A stretch of DNA of 64,000 nt, taken from the NCBI GenBank assembly GCA_947095585.1, contig OX352764.1:76804816-76868815 (forward strand), in the 5' to 3' direction. Made by a program: the position numbers and the translations under genes. Of this stretch, positions 2,976-58,512 are shown piece after piece. Under the pieces are notes generated by a model that did not search any database, was not told the DNA's origin, and saw only the letters and a list, made by a program, of their open reading frames with translations. Source of the stretch: Nephrocerus scutellatus (lineage: Eukaryota; Arthropoda; Insecta; Diptera; Pipunculidae). The number at the start of each line of letters is the position of its first letter. Position 1 is the stretch's first letter.

Positions 2976-4190
2976 ATTTTTAAATTCTCTATATTAACTT
3001 CACTTGCCCGTGGCTGGCTGGCTGGCTGGCCAAATCTTGTAATCAATTTTTAACCCACTTCCTAAAGCCCGATTTTATTCAAATTTGGCACACATGTATA
3101 TCTCTCATGACAACACTTTCTATTAATTTGAGGCCCCTCGGGCCGCGGGGTCGGGAGGCTCCCATACAAATATTTTACAAAATTTACCCGATTTTATTTA
3201 AATTTTGTACACATGTGTGTCTTCGATGGAAAACACTTTTTATAAAAATTTGGAGCGATCGGCCCAATATACAATTTTGAAATATCGCTATATCGCAACA
3301 GATCACGGCAAAGTATGAGCTCTGTGCTTTGTGAACAGCGCTGTTCGCTGCCGCTGCGGCATTTGGTGGATGATTTTGCCACAAAACAAAAATGTTTTTT
3401 TGAATAAAATTAAGCACATCTCGGTCGTCAGGGCCCGATCACTACAAAAAATTTACAAAACGTTTTGTCCATCAGAAATACACATGTCTTTAAAATTTGA
3501 AGAAAATTCTGGCAAATTTTTTAAAAATTTATATGGGCACACCTCGGGCCTCAGAGCTCGATCACTCCAAAACTGCCACAAAAAAAGTTTTGTCCATCGG
3601 AAAATCGGGCTTATTTTTAAAAAAATGTATATGGTCACCCCCTGGGCCTCAGTGCCCGTTCACTCCAAAAATGTTAAAAAAAAGTTATTCTATCGGAGAT
3701 ACACATGTGTATAAAATTTAAAGAAAATAGGGCCTATTTTTAAAAAAATTATTTGAGTACCCCTCAGCCTTCTGGGCCCTTTCACTCCAAAAATTTTACA
3801 AAAAGTGTTGTCTATCGGAGATACATATGTGTATAAAATTTGAAGGAAATCGGGTTAATTTTTAAAAAAAAATTATGGGGCCCCACGACCCCGGAGCCCG
3901 GAGTCTCCACAATTATTATAAAAAGTTTTGTCCATCGGAGATACCTATGTTTATAAAATTTGAAGAAAATCGGGTAAATTTTGTAAACTATTTGTATGGG
4001 AGCCCCCGACCCCGAGGCCGGAGAGTCCCAAATTAATAGAAAGTGTTGTCACCGAAGATACTAATGTGTGCAAAAATTCAATGAAATCGGGCGTTAGGAA
4101 GTGGGTTAAAAATTAATCGCAAGATTGCACGACAAACAAACAAACACACGTACGCGCTAAATTAATATAGAGAATTTAAAAAGGGTAGAC
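2975..4190. mobile_element. Fold-back element of ~120-bp monomers
   Basis: The ends are inverted repeats: the left end reads TTTTTAAATTCTCTATATTA (about 2978) and the right end TATAGAGAATTTAAAAAG (about 4170). Inside each end lie matching inverted blocks (AACCCACTTCCTAA near 3053; TTAGGAAGTGGGTT near 4095). Between them, monomers run antisense on the left (about 3060-3400) and sense on the right (about 3420-4080), with the landmark CACATGTGT recurring at about 3482, 3703, 3825, 3946 and 4062, a period near 120 bp. The right arm is longer than the left. Overlapping ORFs here (such as 3331-3714) are composed of the monomers and show no domain. It resembles fold-back or satellite-carrying MITE elements; no transposase is present, so it would be non-autonomous. 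A stretch at 3260-3400 near the centre (AGATCACGGCAAAGT) recurs at about 21105. Confidence 0.8.
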
Positions 4191-14329: not shown

Positions 14330-15342
14330 TTTTTTATTGAAACGTAATAAATTTATGGTCTACATTTCATAACACTGCAACTACTTGATTTGATATAGAA
14401 ATAATTCATTCTACAAAATAACACATACAGATATATACAGATATTAGTTTTAGCTGCCAGCAATTAGATCATGTGGTTTGATGCGCTTCAGTCTTCAAGT
14501 AAGTCTGGTTGTATCGGTGAGTTTTACTGCTTCCTGATTTATATGTTGCCTCAGCCTTCAATTATTTACTGTTGCATGCTCTTTAATTGTTTCTTCAACT
14601 GTCTTCAACTTGACTTTAAGGTCGCGATGTATATCTGAGTTCCTAACGTACCATGGTGCCTTGGATTATTTCGATGTTATTTTTGGCCGTACATCCCCAT
14701 AGTTGTATTCCGTATGTCCATACGGGTCTTAGTAATTGTTTATATAGTAATAATTTATGATGAGTAGACAGACACGATCTGTTACCAATAAGCCAATAAA
14801 GTTTTCTAAGTTTGATTTTAAGCTCTTCACTTTTCTTTTTTATATGTTCCTTCCATTTTAGTTTCGTATCTAAGTTCATTCCGAGATACTTCGCTGTGTT
14901 CGAGTAGGGAACTTCCCTTCCTGAGATAGTAATCGGGATCTGTTGAATCTTTTTGTTCGTGAAATCGACGTGAACAAATTTAGTAATTTTGAAATGTATT
15001 CGCCATTTCTCAGTCCAACTTACTAGATCGTCTACAGAATTTTGAAGGATTCTAGTTGATACTAATTCACTTTTTTCGACTACAAGTATCACGGTGTCGT
15101 CGGCAAATGTAGCTACTGTACTGTTTGGAGGGACTGGTATGTCATTTGTAAAAAGCACATATAGGATTGGCCCTAATATACTTCCTTGTGGCACTCCAGC
15201 TTTAATTTCTTTAAGGTGGGAATAAGTTTGATACGAAAGTATCTTCCTGAGAGATAAGACTCCAGTATTGCCGTATATTCTTTGGGGAAGAGTAGCTTAA
15301 GTTTAAAAAGTAATCCTTTATGCCAAACCTTATCAAACGCAT
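14330..15342 (-). mobile_element. Jockey-like LINE, 5'-truncated, with 7-bp TSD
   Basis: AGAATTT at 14323-14329 and 15343-15349 is the target duplication; the 3' poly-A end is at 14330 and the element is cut at 15342. Minus-strand coding: 'LESYLSGRYFRIK', a frameshift, then an open run 15194-14643 with 'QGSILGPILYVLFTNDIP' (RT motif 4), 'VATFADDTVIL' (catalytic FADD), 'AKYLGMNLDTKLKWKEHI' and 'LLRPVWTYGIQLWGC'. After another one-base shift comes the tail 'RNSDIHRDLK...', a signature of Jockey-clade ORF2 C-termini. Few lesions, so fairly recent. A second, older copy lies at 48110-50745. Confidence 0.88.
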
Positions 15343-15544
15343 AGAATTTACATGAAAATTACATGAATTTTTATGGGTTGTTTTTTATTTTCGTGTTAAT
15401 TCACTCTCCTAAACTTTTGGAGTGTTTTTGTTGTTGTTCCACTTTGTAGTTGTTTAAAGCTCACTTAGCACTAAGCAAACTCTACTTTTGTGTTGTCGGC
15501 TTGACTGCGCTCACGCGACTTTTTCTCTACACGGAAAAAAATGT

Positions 15545-16085
15545 GGCCTAAATTTAATGTTTTTGTAATTAATATTATGGAATTTATGCCTTGATCTGGA
15601 CCTTATGTATTTACAACCTTATTTTAATGAATGCCGACATAATTAGAAGGTTAAAATCTTTATAACAATTCAAGGCAAATGCTGTCTTGTTTTAAGGAAT
15701 TTAGTTTAAATTTCATGTTATAGGGTAATAGATTAAGGTTTCAAAATATATGAATTAAGGAAAAAAAACATAAATTTTTGGAATATTAACCTTTAAATTA
15801 TAAAATGATTCATTAAATTAAGGAAAAAGTTTCCATTAATTTAGAATCATTTCATTGGAGTTTAAGTAATTTTTCCTAAATTTTATGTCACAGATAACAA
15901 CAATTTAGTACTTATTGATTGAAATTAGCATGGGATCTAGGTATGGCACATTAAATTGAGGTCATAAATATACTTGTTTCAAGGTTTCTTTCATAAAAAA
16001 TACTGCTTTCAAATTGAAATAAAAATCGTTATACGAGTATATTTGTATGTTAATTATATTTAAAATAAATATATGTTATAAAATA
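15545..16085. repeat. Subterminal region with TTAAGG motifs (3' side)
   Basis: The AT-rich stretch between the terminus and the transposase stop has repeated short motifs: TTTAAGGAATTTAG (about 15693), ATTAAGGTTTC (about 15731), GAATTAAGGAAAAA (about 15754) and AAATTAAGGAAAAAG (about 15815). EnSpm/CACTA elements commonly have arrays of short subterminal repeats that bind their proteins; that role here is inference. Confidence 0.6.
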
Positions 16086-16090
16086 CATTT

Positions 16091-18553
16091 TTAAAATAAA
16101 CATGGTTTAAAACATTCTCTTAAATCTAAATATGTATATAATGATATTGGTTTTAATTGAGTTCTACCCAATTTCACATAACTATAATCCGATTCAAGTC
16201 GTCCAACTATAAATGCCCTTAAATGCTGATCATATTTTTCAACAATTTTTGTTTGTGTAATGAAGTAAACTTCATCGCTTTTTTTAACTATGATGTCAAT
16301 AATCTTGAATAATTTATTTTCTTCTTTCTCATAAATAAAGAAATTGACTTTGTACAAAGTGTTATGAAATGTTAATGAGCTAACTAATTGAAAATAATCC
16401 GAAGTTAAATTAAGTTTTTCTGAAATAACACTAAAATACGGTTTATTGGCAAATAAGATATCATTTTCTATTTTATTGATGATTAAAGGCTGATTAAATC
16501 CAATATTTTCTAAAATCGTCAACGCAAAATTTGATAGACATTTCTTGGCTATTGATACGGGTAAATTTTTTCGCGACGAAGTGGAATTTGTGTAACATTT
16601 CATCTCTCGGTGTTTCGATTCAAATCGCATACACCAATAATAGATAGGTGGACCAGAGTTTAGGATAACTGTCGGATAATGCGATAAGATGTGGTGCTTT
16701 GGTTTTAAATTATCGTCAAATAAATTTAAATACATTTCATTATGGAGAGCTATTTTCTCTCTTAACAAATTTATTACTATCTCTGAAAAATTATCATAAA
16801 GTAATATCTCGAGAACTTCATCTAAGAGGCAAATATATTTCCATACTCTGTCATTTTGTGGTACTTTATCACCAACCAGTAACGAAAAGAACTGTAAAAA
16901 TTTTAAACTTTCACGAGCCGACATATGAAGATTTTTATTTTTCAAGTGATCGAGCTTTATCAATGGTATTCTATTTGTGCACTGTAATTCTCCATAATCA
17001 AAATATTGAATTCTATTGTTCAATTCGTTCAGAGAGAAGTATTGCTTTGCGTTAATAAAATAACCAATGGCATTTGACAAACCATACTTGATTATTCCTT
17101 CGAAACAATCATGCATAATATCTACACAATGGTTTTGAGTCACGTGGAATCCTTGCAATTTATTAAAATATGATTCAAATTTTATGCCTGATTGTTTATA
17201 ATCATTTTTAATCAAATCATCTTTATAATTTTGAATTGTCCTAAGTTTAGCATGGTCTTCATATTTATGATTATTAATTTCATCTCTCGGTACTTTGCAA
17301 AACCGGCAGAAATATTTATGACTGAATGATGGACTGAAACCTAATAAACAATTTAAACCTAAATTATCACCAACTATACTACCTAATACAAAAAAGATTT
17401 GGAACTTCTTATCTTTAATATTTATAGTTATACCTTCTTCTTCTAGTTTCTGTAATATTTGTATAAGCTTGCTTACAGTTTTATTGTAACCATATTTTTT
17501 TATTATAGCTGTTCTGACAAACATTGCTGGAAAAATGGATGACAAACTTGAGCAGTTTTGAGGAAGTGTCGGAAAGTTAAAATAAAAAGCTGCGATCGAT
17601 TGATTTCCCGCATGACTTCCTAATGCATTCCCTGTCTCGAAGTCGTCGTAATACAAATTTAAAGGAATTACGTTTTTATCTTTGAAATTTTTAGTTTTTT
17701 CTTTCCAATTTGCACCATGAAGTATGCTAGCAATGTTCGAAAATGAAGCATTATTTTCAAGCACTTTACAGTTTTCTAAAGTTTTTTCTAAAACTCCAGG
17801 CAACTCAAAAAATTTTCGAATTAAAAAATGGATGGGCATTAAAACTCCAAAAGATGTTTTTTTTTCTAGATGGGTGACCCCCTTTTTCAATACTTCAGTT
17901 ACTTCCGAATTAATAATAAAGTTTTCGGCCGGTCTATACAAATCTAAACTTTTGAGTTGCGTTAATAATAAATGCTCGCTGCTAATTTCGCAAAAAGGTT
18001 TCTGACAAATTTCGAATAAAACCTCACATTTGCTTTTCATTTCATCCACAACACAAGGCAAAATTTGAATTTTCAATTTTTTGAGAATATTAAGCATTAC
18101 AGTGTCTGAAGTTTCTTTTACAATCGTTTTTAATAGGCTAGTTGTGATATTATTTACCCCATTCAATTTGCAAACGAACTTCAATGCAATGTCGTTAATC
18201 TCTCGTTTAAACTTTGAAATGGTTTTAATTGGCGTATCGATCGTTTCAAATTTATTTTCAGTAGCGTCGACAACAATATTTATAAAACTTTCTTGGTTTG
18301 AGCAATTTTTATTTGGCTGTAAATTTGGATTTTGTTCCTGTGTTAGATCAGAAATTATAGGTTCAGCAAGTTTAAATTTTGTGCAAGAAATATAGTGGCG
18401 TTTTAGTTTACCAGCGTTGCAAAAGGTTGATAAACATTTAGCATTTGGACATTTATAATTATCTGTAGACGATTTAAATCTATGAATTATTTTTAAATGT
18501 AAAATGTATGAATCTATTTCATTACAAGAAAAGTTACAAATTTGGCAATTCAT
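16091..18553 (-). CDS. Transposase of CMC-like element (820 aa)
   Basis: An uninterrupted ATG-to-TAA frame with no intron. N-terminal zinc-finger pair: C3-C6-H19-H24 (classical C2H2) and C35-C40-H53-C57 (C2HC); probably DNA-binding. A low-complexity linker (about 60-110) and a helical region (110-290) follow. The core contains 'LNLYYDDFETGNALGSHAGN' (D303/D304), 'GDNLGLNCLLGF' (D396), a CxxC zinc site (C416, C419), 'NHCVDIMHDCFEGI' (D478, H481, D482), paired histidines H620-H621 and 'CMRFESKHREMK' (E645). I infer that D303 or D304, D396 and E645 form an RNase-H-fold DDE triad; the assignment needs a structure model. The YYDDFE and DNLGLN motifs are ones I know from uncharacterised transposon-derived proteins of fish, cnidarians and arthropods. 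Its start lies 81 bp after the accessory gene stop. No stop or frameshift, so it may be functional. Confidence 0.85.
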   Translation of the reverse strand: MNCQICNFSCNEIDSYILHLKIIHRFKSSTDNYKCPNAKCLSTFCNAGKLKRHYISCTKFKLAEPIISDLTQEQNPNLQPNKNCSNQESFINIVVDATENKFETIDTPIKTISKFKREINDIALKFVCKLNGVNNITTSLLKTIVKETSDTVMLNILKKLKIQILPCVVDEMKSKCEVLFEICQKPFCEISSEHLLLTQLKSLDLYRPAENFIINSEVTEVLKKGVTHLEKKTSFGVLMPIHFLIRKFFELPGVLEKTLENCKVLENNASFSNIASILHGANWKEKTKNFKDKNVIPLNLYYDDFETGNALGSHAGNQSIAAFYFNFPTLPQNCSSLSSIFPAMFVRTAIIKKYGYNKTVSKLIQILQKLEEEGITINIKDKKFQIFFVLGSIVGDNLGLNCLLGFSPSFSHKYFCRFCKVPRDEINNHKYEDHAKLRTIQNYKDDLIKNDYKQSGIKFESYFNKLQGFHVTQNHCVDIMHDCFEGIIKYGLSNAIGYFINAKQYFSLNELNNRIQYFDYGELQCTNRIPLIKLDHLKNKNLHMSARESLKFLQFFSLLVGDKVPQNDRVWKYICLLDEVLEILLYDNFSEIVINLLREKIALHNEMYLNLFDDNLKPKHHILSHYPTVILNSGPPIYYWCMRFESKHREMKCYTNSTSSRKNLPVSIAKKCLSNFALTILENIGFNQPLIINKIENDILFANKPYFSVISEKLNLTSDYFQLVSSLTFHNTLYKVNFFIYEKEENKLFKIIDIIVKKSDEVYFITQTKIVEKYDQHLRAFIVGRLESDYSYVKLGRTQLKPISLYTYLDLRECFKPCLF

Positions 18554-18634
18554 TTTATATTTGAATAAATGTACTTATACAAAATTAGAAAGTCATTAAA
18601 AGAAATAAAAATAATTATAAAAAATTAATCCAAA
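18554..18634 (-). promoter_or_regulatory. 81-bp AT-rich gap between the two transposon genes
   Basis: The only sequence between the accessory-gene stop (TAG at 18635-18637) and the transposase ATG (18553). It is almost pure AT with no obvious polyadenylation signal plus promoter arrangement. Options are a dicistronic mRNA, an internal promoter within the last accessory exon, or alternative splicing from upstream exons to the transposase. Confidence 0.4.
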
Positions 18635-20988
18635 CTAATTAACCAAGTTTGTCACATTCAAATCTGAAATTAATAATGCAACGTCGACGTCTGTTTTATC
18701 ACTTGGTGTTGTTATATTAAAAAAATAATGTTGTATAAACAACCAAACCTTGTAACATTCGGTGGAATATTGTAAATTCAATGCGAAATGAATTTTAAAT
18801 GTAACTGAAATGCACTCTACGATATGTTTAAAACAATAATATATTTGGTCGTAACAAACCGCAAATTTGTTTTCCTCAGATTTGTTCAAAATTACAATGA
18901 ATGGTTGCAGATTAAGCCCGAATTCATTATAAATATCTCTTCTTTTTTTAATTTCTTCTTGTATGTTGGTTACATCATTGTTTAGTTCTAAAAATAAGGA
19001 ATTTATGGAGTCTAGAATAGACACTTTCCAAATTTTCTTGTCCTTCCGAATGAGCCGCGCTGAAGGTTTCAGTAAGTAACTTAATGCCTTTAGTACCACC
19101 AAATTTCTTGAATCTAAAAATAAGGAGAAAAATATCACATTTAAATAATGTTTGTTATTCCTTGCTAGATTTTATTGTAGACGAAACTTCTCGATCATCA
19201 AGATTGCAATTTTATTTAACAAAAAGTATATATTTAATTTATATAAAAGTATATTTATTTAATGAAAAATGATTTAAACAAATTATATGTTAAAAATTAA
19301 GTCTGGGTTTACCATCATTTTTATGTTCACTTGTAAGTTTTTCGAGAACTGCTTTATCTTTGATTCTAATGGTCATTATTGGAATAATTTTCTCTAGGAA
19401 GCTGTTCCATTTTTTCGGTACACAAAATTCCTTACCGGGATATAACATTTTAAATTCGAGATCAATCTAATAGTAAAACATATTTTAGTTGTTTTTATAG
19501 TTGGTTAATTCCAAAACTTCGCTTACAAGTCTGAAAGCGTCTGGATTCCTATAAATTATCCAATTTTTATAAAAAGTTTGCGCATTAAATTGTTGTTCGA
19601 AGAGTTCTTGCTGGCGACCCTTAAATGTGTTTTGAAATTTAATTTCTACGGTACTCCAAGGTACGTCCATGCACTGTAACCACTCTTTGTCCTGTTCAAA
19701 TTCTTCATTTTTTACATAATCCACGATTGTCGAATCAATGGGACCCTGCTTACTATCTTCTTCTATAAAAATAAAATAAGAAAATAGAAATGTAAACACA
19801 AGAATAACCAACTTGTTATAGTACCTTTTGATTTTGAGTGACCTATTTTATTTCGTTTTGGCTCACCAAAGTAACCAATCTTATTAAGTTTCGGGGACTC
19901 GTTCCGATATTTATTATAAAGTTTTCCTGTAGGTCTTTTTTTTTGGACATGATGGAAGTACCAATCCTAAAACGAATAAAAATAAAATGAAATCTTAATG
20001 TTTTTTCTCGCCATTACATAGCAGTATCTTTACTTTTTTTTCTCCGCAAAAGGTGTTTGCGATATCGCCGGCAATTCTATCAAAATCATCGTAGTTCATA
20101 GCTATGTTATGTGTGTAATGAAATTCTAATATTTGTTCGATCAACAATTTTCGTTCTACATCATCCAATTTAGGGGGGTTTGACGAACCGTAGCATTTCC
20201 AAATTTTTCTGCCCTTATCAGTCTCCAAAAAATTTTTCAAATTCTGAAATAAAAAATAGTTTTAGTTGCGAACATATTTGTGGAACAAACTACCATACAA
20301 AACACGTTGTTTCATTTTCAATGGGGATTCCAGAATCTCTCGATGTGGGTGGTGTTGCCCGGTCGCAACGGATGGTTTCTAACCAACTGTTCACTGAACT
20401 GGTTAATGATTTGGTGCTCCCGCTTAATAATTCTACTTCTATATTAAGTCCCTAATGAAAGGTTATAAAAAATACAATTCTTTAAAACAATTCCCCAATT
20501 ATCATCTTAAAAATAACTACATTTAGTTTTCGCCAATCAACAATTTTTCTTCTAAGTCGAATTTTGTGGCATTGATCGCTCTGAAGCGGAAACATTTTTT
20601 CTAATTCCAGTTCTGATAAGGCCTCTAAATCGGATAATTGGTCATAACCGGCTTCTGTAAGAGGGACGATAAATGTAATTGCATAAATAAATGTGATAGT
20701 AATAGCTTTACCTTCAAATTTTTCACGTAAATAATAAAGGTCCCATTCGTAAAGTAGTTGTTGGACTTCGTTCATATCGAGTACATCACTTGTGATGTCC
20801 AGACAAATTAAACCTTCTTGTGGTTCTTGCTCATCAATAAATACAAGTGGGTTATTCTCCAAATCTTCACATTGATTATTTGAAATAAATAAATCATCTA
20901 AGATACAATTAAACACGATTAAGTTAAGTTAAGTTCTTAAATTGGGGTTGAGTATTCAATTTAATTCACCTTTCAAATTTGTAGACAT
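18635..20988 (-). CDS. SAM-domain accessory protein of the transposon (9 exons)
   Basis: Exons I infer on the minus strand: 20988-20970, 20897-20712, 20654-20521, 20451-20299, 20243-20034, 19966-19825, 19762-19527, 19466-19313 and 19113-18635. Every junction has GT...AG, all phases agree, and the total of 1713 nt encodes 570 residues plus a stop. Introns are 72, 57, 69, 55, 67, 62, 60 and 199 bp. The ATG at 20988 gives 'MSTNLK' before the first intron. Residues about 50-112 look like a SAM domain ('LLYEWDLYYLREKFEEAGYD', 'LEALSELELEKMFPL', 'GxR-like RLRRKIVDW'), a protein-interaction fold. Residues about 180-260 form a conserved-looking block ('VERKLLIEQILEF', 'DFDRIAGDIANTFCGEKK', 'GKLYNKYRN') that I have seen in other SAM-containing transposon accessory proteins; its function is unknown to me. 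The C-terminal 210 residues are helical with no domain recognised. Probably a partner of the adjacent transposase. Confidence 0.75.
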
Positions 20989-21054
20989 TTTACCGCAATT
21001 TTTGTGTACGATGCACTTTATTTATTAAATTAAGAATCACTCTTCTGAAAATAT

Positions 21055-21290
21055 AACAATAGAACATATACAATTTTTAAATATCGCTACATCGCATCAG
21101 ATCACGGCAAAGTCTGAGCTCTGTGCTTTGTGGGCATCGCTGTTCGCTGCCGCTGCGTCATTTAGCGAATGATTGTGCCACAAAACGAGCACGCAGTGTG
21201 TGTGTGTGTATCCCCGATTAGAGAATTTACAAGAAAAATTTTAATTTTTATTGGTTGTTTTTTTTATTTTACGTTTATACGAGCACGTGT
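21055..21290. repeat. Fold-back-family fragment nested in the transposon
   Basis: AGATCACGGCAAAGT, GCTCTGTGCTTTGTG and the GCTGTTCGCTGCCGCTGCG stretch (about 21105-21155) match 3300-3360. TTAGAGAATTTAC (about 21219) and 'tttttattggttg' match the unit end at 15343-15375. It lies in the 5' flank of the accessory gene, so it either inserted after transposition or carries promoter-like sequence. Confidence 0.7.
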
Positions 21291-22546
21291 TAAAAAGCCG
21301 CATTACCATTAATTTTTTGTTGAAAATTTGCTGAGGCAAAATTATAAGATGAATAAAATATGTCGCACTAAATTCTATTACGCGTTGCTTCTTGTGGTTG
21401 ATGTATACTATTTAAGTGAAGTAAACTACCAATCCTTAAATCACAATTTATTTTTATCACCAGTTTATATTAGAAATTTAAAACGATTCAACACAACACA
21501 ATTTGAAAGCTGAATATTATATCCATTCGGTTTTCAAACAACGCTTAAAGAAATATTGAAAAGAACCTGTTACGCCATGTTCTCGCATGTTCTTGTTACG
21601 CCAATAGACATCAATAAAAAATCAAAATAAAACTAAGTTTACTTATTACCCCGATAGTTATAATGCATACACACTTACATATTAGGTGCTCGTTTAACAA
21701 TAACTGCACTTTTTTTATTATAAAAATAAATTCCAAAACTATTAATTTTTGGTTTCACTTTTCACTTCTTATGCATATGATTGCCGCAATACGAATGACA
21801 ATGACGCGAAAAACTTTGCGAATATTTTACCACGTACTAAAAATGAATTTAATGAAAGAAGCCTTAATACAAGGAAAATATCACAGTTTTGATGTATGTA
21901 AAATAATGTTACATAAAATTAATGATTAATATTCATTAATTATAGGAATGGGATAAAACCAATACATTTAAAGCAAAATTATTTTATAAATCCATACATT
22001 TAATAAATTTTTTGTTGATTTTATATATCAATTATTTTCTATAAAACGGTTTCTTATTCATTTGATTGTTATTAGGAGGTTTTAGAGTCATTTTAGACCT
22101 GGTAAAATATACACTTATGATACCAGATGACAACAATACTTTGTTTGTAGTAGTTTGTGAGTCGTTTTTGGTATTAATTAAGATTCCTAAAAATAATATT
22201 TTAAAATCTTAAAATTAATGTATGATTTAGGTTTAAAATCAAGGCAAATAGATTCCTATATATAATGATTAAGCCGCTACATAAGTTTAGTGATAAATTG
22301 ACTTACATTTATGCCTAATTCCTTAAAACTAAGACAATTGCTTATAAATTGGTCCTAATTTAAGGAATTTTAAGAACCTTAAATTTATGGAAAATATTGT
22401 GGTTTTTTATGTTCGGTTTTCTTTAAATTTGATAGATTTTGTCATTGATTTTTGGAAAGCTAAATTTGTTTGCCTTATTTCAAGGAAATTTACAATTCTG
22501 TAAAACAAGGACAGCGGTTCATAGAATTAAGGCAGCATATTTTTTT
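21290..22546. other. 5' noncoding and subterminal part of the transposon
   Basis: Small ORFs (21328-21513, 21663-21929) show no domain. The outer part carries TTAAGG-type motifs: ATTCCTTAAAACTAAG (about 22318), TTTAAGGAATTTTAAG (about 22361), ACCTTAAATTTATGG (about 22376) and GAATTAAGGCAGC (about 22524), mirroring the other end. A promoter for the accessory gene is expected between 21000 and 22500 but I cannot point to it. Confidence 0.55.
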
Positions 22547-22619
22547 CAGTGTACATACAATAACTTTAAACTTTCTGATTATATAGATACGGAGGGGATA
22601 CGGATGGTCAGTTGAAGAT

Positions 22620-38140: not shown

Positions 38141-38660
38141 AGGGTGGAGCGGCATAGTCGCAGAATTGATGTAAGAGATACACATGTGTTTAAAATTTGA
38201 AGAAAATCGGTTTAATTTTGAAAAAAAATTATATGGGCATACCTTGGGCCTCAGGACCCGATACTCCAGAAGTTTAAAAAAAATTGTGGTGTCCATCGGA
38301 GATACACATGTGTTTAAAATTTGAAGAAAATCGGGCTAGTTTTTAAAAATGTATATGGGCTACCCTTGGTCAGGCCCTTTCAGCAAAAAATTTTACAAAA
38401 AGTTTTGTTCATCACAGATACACATGTATATAAAATTTGAAGAATATCGGGTACATTTTTAAAAAAATTATATGGGCACCCCTCGGCCTGAGGCCCGGCG
38501 GCCCCAAATTTGAATAGAAAGTGTTGTCACCGGAAATACACATGTGTGCAAAATTTCAATAAAATCAGGCATTCGGAGTTGGGTTAAAAATTGATCACAA
38601 GATCTGACCAGTCAGCCAGACAGCCACGGACACGCGAAGTTAATAAAGAGAATTAAAAAA
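38140..38660. repeat. Fold-back-family right half (four monomers)
   Basis: Sense monomers with CACATGTGT-type landmarks at about 38180, 38305, 38423 and 38538 (period about 120 bp), then GGGTTAAAAATTGATCACAAG and the right terminus AATAAAGAGAATTAAAAAAA (about 38641). The left half is missing. The 79-codon minus ORF 38296-38057 runs from the repeat into the flank and has no domain. Confidence 0.78.
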
Positions 38661-57969: not shown

Positions 57970-58250
57970 AGCAACCCATAAAAATTAAAATTTTTCATGT
58001 AAATTCTCTAATAGGAGAAGCATATGTGTGTAAAGTTTGAACCGGGTTAATTTAGAAAAAAATTAATATAAGAACCCCTTCACTTCAAAATTTTTACAAA
58101 AACTGTTCTCATCGGAGATAATTGAAGAAAATATGGTTAATTTTAAAAAAAAATGTGTATGGGCACCCCTCGGGACACAGGAGCAGGACACTCTAAAAAT
58201 TTTACAAAAAGTTTTGTCAATCGGAGATACATATGTGTGACCCTCAAAAG
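57970..58250. repeat. Fold-back-family monomers
   Basis: AACCCATAAAAATTAAAATT (about 57975), AAATTCTCTAATAGGAGAAG (about 58000), then two sense monomers with GCATATGTGTG (about 58020) and ACATATGTGTG (about 58227). The second monomer breaks directly into the short tandem array at 58230. Confidence 0.72.
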
Positions 58251-58512
58251 ACCCCGAAAAGACCGTCAATATACACCCCGAAATACCACAAAAAGACCCC
58301 CAAAAGACTCATGAAGAAACCCGTAAAAGACCCCCAAAAGACTCCAAAAAATACCCCAAAAAGACAATAAAAAGACCCCCAAAAACCCTCAAAAGACCTC
58401 CAAAACACCCACAAAAGACCCTCAAAGGACTCCTCTAAAGACCCTCAAAAGACCCTCAAAAAAACCCTAAAAAGATCCTCAGAAGACCATAAAAAGACCT
58501 TCAAAAGATACC
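58235..58512. repeat. Short tandem array of AAAAGACCC units
   Basis: Roughly 25 imperfect units of about 10-11 bp (AAAAGACCCTC, AAAAGACCCCC). It lies within the repeat, between a fold-back-family monomer and GTCCTCTGGGGGGGACTC. Confidence 0.85.

Follow-up and report, generated by a model that had tools for sequence, protein, structure and literature searches.

A complete transposon of 7,022 bp lies at positions 15530..22551 of the window, by which we mean the whole 64,000-nucleotide stretch of Nephrocerus scutellatus DNA analysed here (G000:C4:76804816-76868815, from an assembly of 613 Mb in 9 contigs). Both of its genes, encoding a transposase and a nine-exon partner, are on the minus strand, and we consider it very probable that the element is an autonomous-type DNA transposon of the CMC/CMCT group that has moved recently, with a proposed two-protein machinery. 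A sequence-only reading of the same DNA had placed a complete element between these limits, and they proved to be exact, as both ends recur in other copies between unrelated flanks. The left end consists of TA followed by CACGGAAAAAAATGTG and the right end, read inwards, of TA followed by CACTGAAAAAAATATG. In each, TA is the target-site duplication (15528..15529 and 22552..22553, read from the sequence and from the comparison of copies) and the rest is the terminal inverted repeat (15530..15545 on the plus strand and 22536..22551 on the minus strand). The two arms agree at 14 of 16 positions, as had been claimed, and the same termini are common to other copies. A mismatch immediately inside the repeat had been named as a sign against the element, and at both ends of the window copy the inverted repeat does stop after ~16 bp, with none further directly inside; the recurrence of the ends nevertheless stands, and a chance inverted repeat is ruled out by the identical ends of other copies.

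The mobility of the element is evident from its complete ends, its target duplications, its near-identical copies and an identical derivative at unrelated loci. Searches of the genome with the left 501 bp and the right 500 bp gave at least 18 matches (seven at ~100 %) and at least 26 matches (six at 100 %), respectively, both counts being lower bounds, and 14 stretches of the genome were retrieved for the comparison of copies. Besides the window copy, there are three full-length copies, L010, L011 and L014, which are 99.986 %, 99.972 % and 99.6 % identical to it. Two further copies, L012 and L013, represent a 3,271-bp deletion derivative, are identical letter for letter, and end as the window copy does. 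In this derivative ~3.75 kb are missing: nearly the whole transposase gene, partner exons 7 to 9 and most of exon 6. Its two copies sit on separate contigs and differ in their flanks and in their duplications (TG and TA). Thus, the further 7-kb copies and derivatives with the same termini that the sequence-only reading had proposed to look for do exist, and recent activity, which it had suspected, is supported by the near-identical full-length copies and the identical deletion derivatives. The copies L015-L022 are older, diverged and partly deleted. One more copy, L009, is a left half of 3,430 bp in inverted orientation to L010 (G000:C4:97.97-97.99 Mb), the left ends of the two facing each other ~4.4 kb apart; the pair may have arisen by aberrant transposition or by a rearrangement.

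A 2-bp direct repeat was present at all ten two-ended copies among the 16 copy rows compared (TA at seven, TG, TT and CA at one each). The other six rows lack one end, and in one of these, the copy in L016, the loss is confined to the five outermost bases on the left. TA is thus preferred as a target, not required: the TA duplication noticed earlier holds for the window copy and fails as a rule, and strict TA targeting is ruled out by the three copies with TG, TT and CA. Segmental duplication is ruled out as well, by the different flanks of the copies and by the separate 2-bp repeat around each two-ended one. Empty sites, which had also been suggested as a check, were found as paralogues for the older copy L015. 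Its joined flanks match three repeats in the window across the junction (30210-30097, 47951-47831 and 62490-62391; 68-75 % identical), where these have a single CA or AA at the junction and look as would be expected of empty sites.

Among the four full-length copies, the transposase frame is intact only in the window copy. L010 and L011 have a 1-bp deletion in common in this gene, and L014 has a 2-bp insertion in it, so that three of the four frames are broken and present activity depends on the single copy known to be intact. The partner gene has kept its frame in the window copy, L010 and L011, without amino-acid changes, and is interrupted by a premature stop in L014. Most likely, the copies with broken frames and the deletion derivatives were moved in trans by an intact copy, which fits the presence of one common frameshift at two loci and of one common internal deletion at two others. 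An alternative for the 1-bp deletion of L010 and L011 is a sequencing error in a homopolymer.

Both subterminal regions contain the motif T(T/C)AAGG. The left one (15530..15985) is rich in it, with six occurrences on the plus strand and one on the minus strand within 650 bp, and the right one (22239..22551) has it on both strands, with four and two, respectively, in the last 650 bp. The terminal 1,050 bp contain 18 AAGG cores vs. 7.9 expected, eight TTAAGG vs. 1.2 and four TCAAGG vs. 0.3. In 500 dinucleotide shuffles of the two ends, the observed count was never attained for any tested core, these enrichment figures being descriptive, since the motif was picked post hoc.

A dispersed genomic repeat is nested in the element upstream of the partner gene (approximately 21066..21265, plus strand), as was seen by repeat comparison. 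Parts of it occur also at window positions 3267-3387, 58018-57969, 48052-48003, 2804-2766 and 15343-15391, and in a sister element described below (L034:3958-4023). A 76-bp query from it gave 876 first-look candidates genome-wide, and many of the 40 scored were 97-100 % identical over 60-69 bp. That this stretch is a conserved promoter is ruled out: it is a dispersed repeat, and its orientation relative to the genes is reversed in the sister element. Other features of the window include a 183-aa piece of a reverse transcriptase (14643-15194, next to the left end of the element; RVT_1, E 4.5e-11) and tandem arrays at 3504-4091, 38175-38570 and 58239-58508, of which the first two are related to each other, with periods of ~98-122 bp, and the third has a GACCCCCAAAA-type unit.

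The transposase gene (16091..18553, minus strand) is a single exon and a single open frame of 820 aa without lesion, as the sequence-only reading had it. Residues 1-58 (18380..18553) form two N-terminal C2H2 fingers (C3, C6, H19, H24; C35, C40, H53), recognized already in that reading and now visible both as near-invariant columns in 82 sequences and in a structure model. In this model (pLDDT 89.5), residues 114-692 (16478..18214) would fold as a RAG1/Transib-like RNase-H core, RAG1 and Transib being the top folds in the structure comparison. Structure prediction, another check that had been proposed, thus yields a putative catalytic triad of D303 (17645-17647), D396 (17366-17368) and E645 (16619-16621), all on the minus strand. 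These three residues, as well as C416, C419, H621 and H625, are invariant in the 82-sequence alignment. Residues 689-816 (16106..16489, minus strand) are predicted to adopt a BAH fold, which appears in models of two different proteins whose input sequence sets overlap. No BAH profile of Pfam matched the window protein, nor any of five relatives scanned to E 10, and BAH is absent among the best 25 of 36 Pfam families for 54 relatives. The BAH call is structural only, the modelled fold being invisible to Pfam.

Among the same best 25 of 36 families, transposase profiles matched few of the 54 relatives (Plavaka 1/54, Transposase_21 4/54). The Transposase_21 (tnp2) matches reach up to E 0.1 and are weak (the best at 0.0022), and the window protein itself has none. 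The window transposase had no PDB matches by sequence and no NCBIfam family (nor had the sister partner described below a family there), and there were no relatives among 44 pattern matches in viral contigs, and no matches at E <= 0.001 in a viral structure library. Among the best 120 of 225 matches to the transposase, all 16 with an organism name are from insects and none is named a transposase. In agreement with the earlier statement that such proteins are known only as uncharacterised ones, the annotations of the relatives go no further than 'uncharacterised' or 'C2H2-type'.

The partner gene (18635..20988, minus strand) encodes 570 aa and has a homologue in sister families. Its nine exons (20988-20970, 20897-20712, 20654-20521, 20451-20299, 20243-20034, 19966-19825, 19762-19527, 19466-19313 and 19113-18635) all join in phase at GT-AG borders, which upholds the gene structure proposed before except for a weakness in exon 1. 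This exon is only 19 nt long, the start codon of the sister family was placed in the first long exon, and the exon 1 stretch is missing in L021 and L022, the two older copies in which neighbouring sequence survives. For exon 4, only the donor at 20298 would serve, since splicing at the following one introduces a stop. The last exon (residues 412-570; 18635..19113) is conserved, and in diverged families it lies a short distance upstream of the transposase.

The SAM domain ascribed to the partner by the sequence-only reading is at best a candidate, at about residues 44-113 in exons 2 and 3 (20521..20787, minus strand). An isolated 71-aa segment matched SAM_EPH at E 0.014, below the cut-off and behind the unrelated YiiM_3-alpha at E 0.0041. 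No SAM match was found for the whole partner in Pfam or in PDB sequences, where the segment retrieved nothing but unrelated sequences, at E 0.91 at best. For the whole partner, Pfam gave nothing better than E 0.12-0.13 and no RAG2-type match, and for its last exon no family, and two protein searches (6,985 and 92 candidates) gave no partner homologue at E <= 0.001. The partner may resemble the 'SAMD3-like' proteins of fish and cnidarians.

A sister family with the same gene order was found at two loci, L034 2778-9291 (G000:C2) and L035 2732-9245 (G000:C3). Its elements are ~6.5 kb long and 99.92 % identical between the loci, have ends of TA followed by CACTCAGAAAAAA, and are flanked by TA on both sides at both loci. 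The family itself is very young. Tandem repeats lie near both ends of these elements. The sister transposase is intact (817 aa, 33 % identical to that in the window), and the sister partner, whose seven exons were placed by hand at GT-AG borders, has 536 aa and is 26 % identical to the window partner over 520 columns (E 4e-38). Residues 158-221 of the sister partner (L034) gave a sub-threshold match to Pfam DUF4769 (E 3.3e-4), which offers a clue to relatives of the partner among host genes.

The pairing of the two genes extends to diverged loci. The transposase search, in which 55 of 127 candidates were scored, yielded 57 matches, and after removal of 17 of the own family and six second fragments 34 loci remained. 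Likewise, 95 partner matches minus 59 of the own family (>=54 % identity) left 36 at 26-38 %, 35 of them in the C-terminal part. A partner match lies upstream, on the same strand and within 3 kb, at 20 of the 34 transposase loci, vs. ~1e-4 expected per locus. In six C-terminal exon sequences, one per visible family, taken from 20 loci, the window and the sister copies, pN was lower than pS in all 15 pairs (0.28-0.51 vs. 0.66-0.91, with synonymous sites near saturation). The pairing at diverged loci together with pN < pS indicates that the two-gene layout is old and selected. The predicted nine-exon partner gene is, on the same sequence comparisons, real, because diverged relatives in the genome keep the partner just upstream of the transposase and under purifying selection.

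By the features tested, the element belongs to the CMC/CMCT group, so that the earlier description of it as two-gene and CMC-like holds, also with regard to the conserved partner. It has the C(2)C and H(3-4)H motifs between the second D and the last E (D396, C416-x2-C419, H621-x3-H625, E645), 5'-CA..TG-3' termini (CAC..GTG in the window copy, CACTC..GAGTG in the sister family), a duplication in the range of 2-5 bp (2 bp at 10/10 two-ended copies) and, according to the model, an RNase-H (DDE) transposase related to RAG1/Transib. It differs from the rest of this clade in that its named relatives are all from insects, and in its conserved upstream partner and predicted BAH-fold tail, and it is so far assigned to no named lineage. 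Chapaev and Transib make duplications of 4 and 5 bp, respectively, in contrast to the 2 bp here, and the TA duplication of ESTA is seen at only seven of ten copies. The CAC..GTG termini are not those of Plavaka, given as TGT..ACA or CATCA..TGATG in the available part of PMC12730594.

The nearest published precedent that we found is DeMarco 2006 (PMC1636069), which in its available excerpt describes animal TRC/CACTA elements (SmTRC1) with 2-bp duplications, CCC termini and alternative splicing, by which one of the transcripts contains a second ORF. It is possible, though we would not favour it, that the element is an ordinary animal EnSpm/CACTA family of this TRC type, as in Repbase, with the partner corresponding to TNPA in animals and arising from the same transcript through alternative splicing. 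The 2-bp duplications, the animal host and the presence of more than one product are shared with TRC (PMC1636069, same excerpt), and the weak Transposase_21 matches in 4/54 relatives and the ~80 bp between the partner stop and the transposase start fit this reading too. This short interval contains an AG that resembles a splice acceptor. Against it, the termini are CACGG/CACTG here and CCC in TRC, and the excerpt of PMC1636069 reports no conserved second protein. Moreover, searches of the open-licence PMC literature, partly by the starts of abstracts, gave no BAH domain in CACTA/EnSpm transposases and no BAH or SAM protein in such elements; the BAH in the part of PMC4352252 at hand concerns DNA methyltransferases.

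The partner might also be a passenger outside the transposition machinery, for instance one that interferes with host silencing, which we regard as unlikely. Related fungal elements carry accessory genes such as TET/JBP (PMC12730594, in the part available), and 14 of the 34 transposase loci are without a partner exon, as 16 of the 36 partner matches are without an adjoining transposase locus among those listed, although many unpaired loci are fragments and 55 of 127 transposase candidates were scored. Two open frames of 841 aa (C2:17769212 and C6:18724726), 32 % identical and without a partner match nearby, may be a branch of the lineage that lacks the partner. However, at all 12 loci where the transposase match starts in the first 20 residues the partner lies 23-81 bp upstream, in the same place and on the same strand, a conserved placement which fits a core component better than a passenger. 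That the element is closest to Mirage, as the sequence-only reading had proposed from its TA duplication, is highly improbable: TA at seven of ten copies and on both sides of the sister copies and the CAC termini would suit it, but Mirage has a TA-specific duplication, whereas TG, TT and CA occur at 3/10 copies, and the transposase profiles among the best 25 of 36 families for the relatives were Plavaka (1/54) and Transposase_21 (4/54).

For a recently mobile CMC/CMCT transposon with a two-protein machinery, we propose the following mechanism. The transposase would cut at the CAC/GTG ends by DDE cut-and-paste, and the free 3' ends would be joined to target DNA with a 2-bp stagger, preferably at TA. 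The N-terminal fingers, the partner, or both may bind the short terminal repeats and the T(T/C)AAGG subterminal motifs. The partner, with its possible SAM domain, may pair the ends or regulate the reaction, comparable to TNPA alongside TNPD in maize En/Spm, a 2-protein system with short terminal repeats, subterminal sites and a 3-bp duplication. The likeness to En/Spm lies in the two proteins, the short terminal repeats and the subterminal motifs, whereas the motif itself differs and no relation of the partner to TNPA was detected. The C-terminal BAH domain could tether the complex to nucleosomes, as the PHD finger does in RAG2, where it resides on the partner protein.

Tentatively, this can be extended to a distinct, insect-wide CMCT lineage with an obligate two-protein machine, in which a RAG1-fold transposase with a BAH domain would act with a SAM-type, end-pairing partner, in parallel to RAG1-RAG2 and independently of it, the window copy being a working source. 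With RAG1-RAG2 and ProtoRAG the element would have in common a RAG1-like catalytic core, a two-gene layout and a chromatin-reader-type domain in the system; it differs in that the reader-type domain is a putative BAH on the transposase, and in its 2-bp duplication. If this reading is true, catalysis would be coupled to chromatin reading, as in RAG1-RAG2.

What is known of RAG-like recombinases comes mainly from RAG1-RAG2, ProtoRAG and Transib. A very young element that combines a RAG1-like core with a fused BAH fold and comes with a conserved partner would be an experimental system for the choice of chromatin, and would let one study why a second protein is kept, making the putative roles of the partner and of the BAH domain testable. 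Additionally, our results suggest a transposase identity for a set of uncharacterised proteins of insects, among them some that carry no label other than 'C2H2-type domain-containing'.
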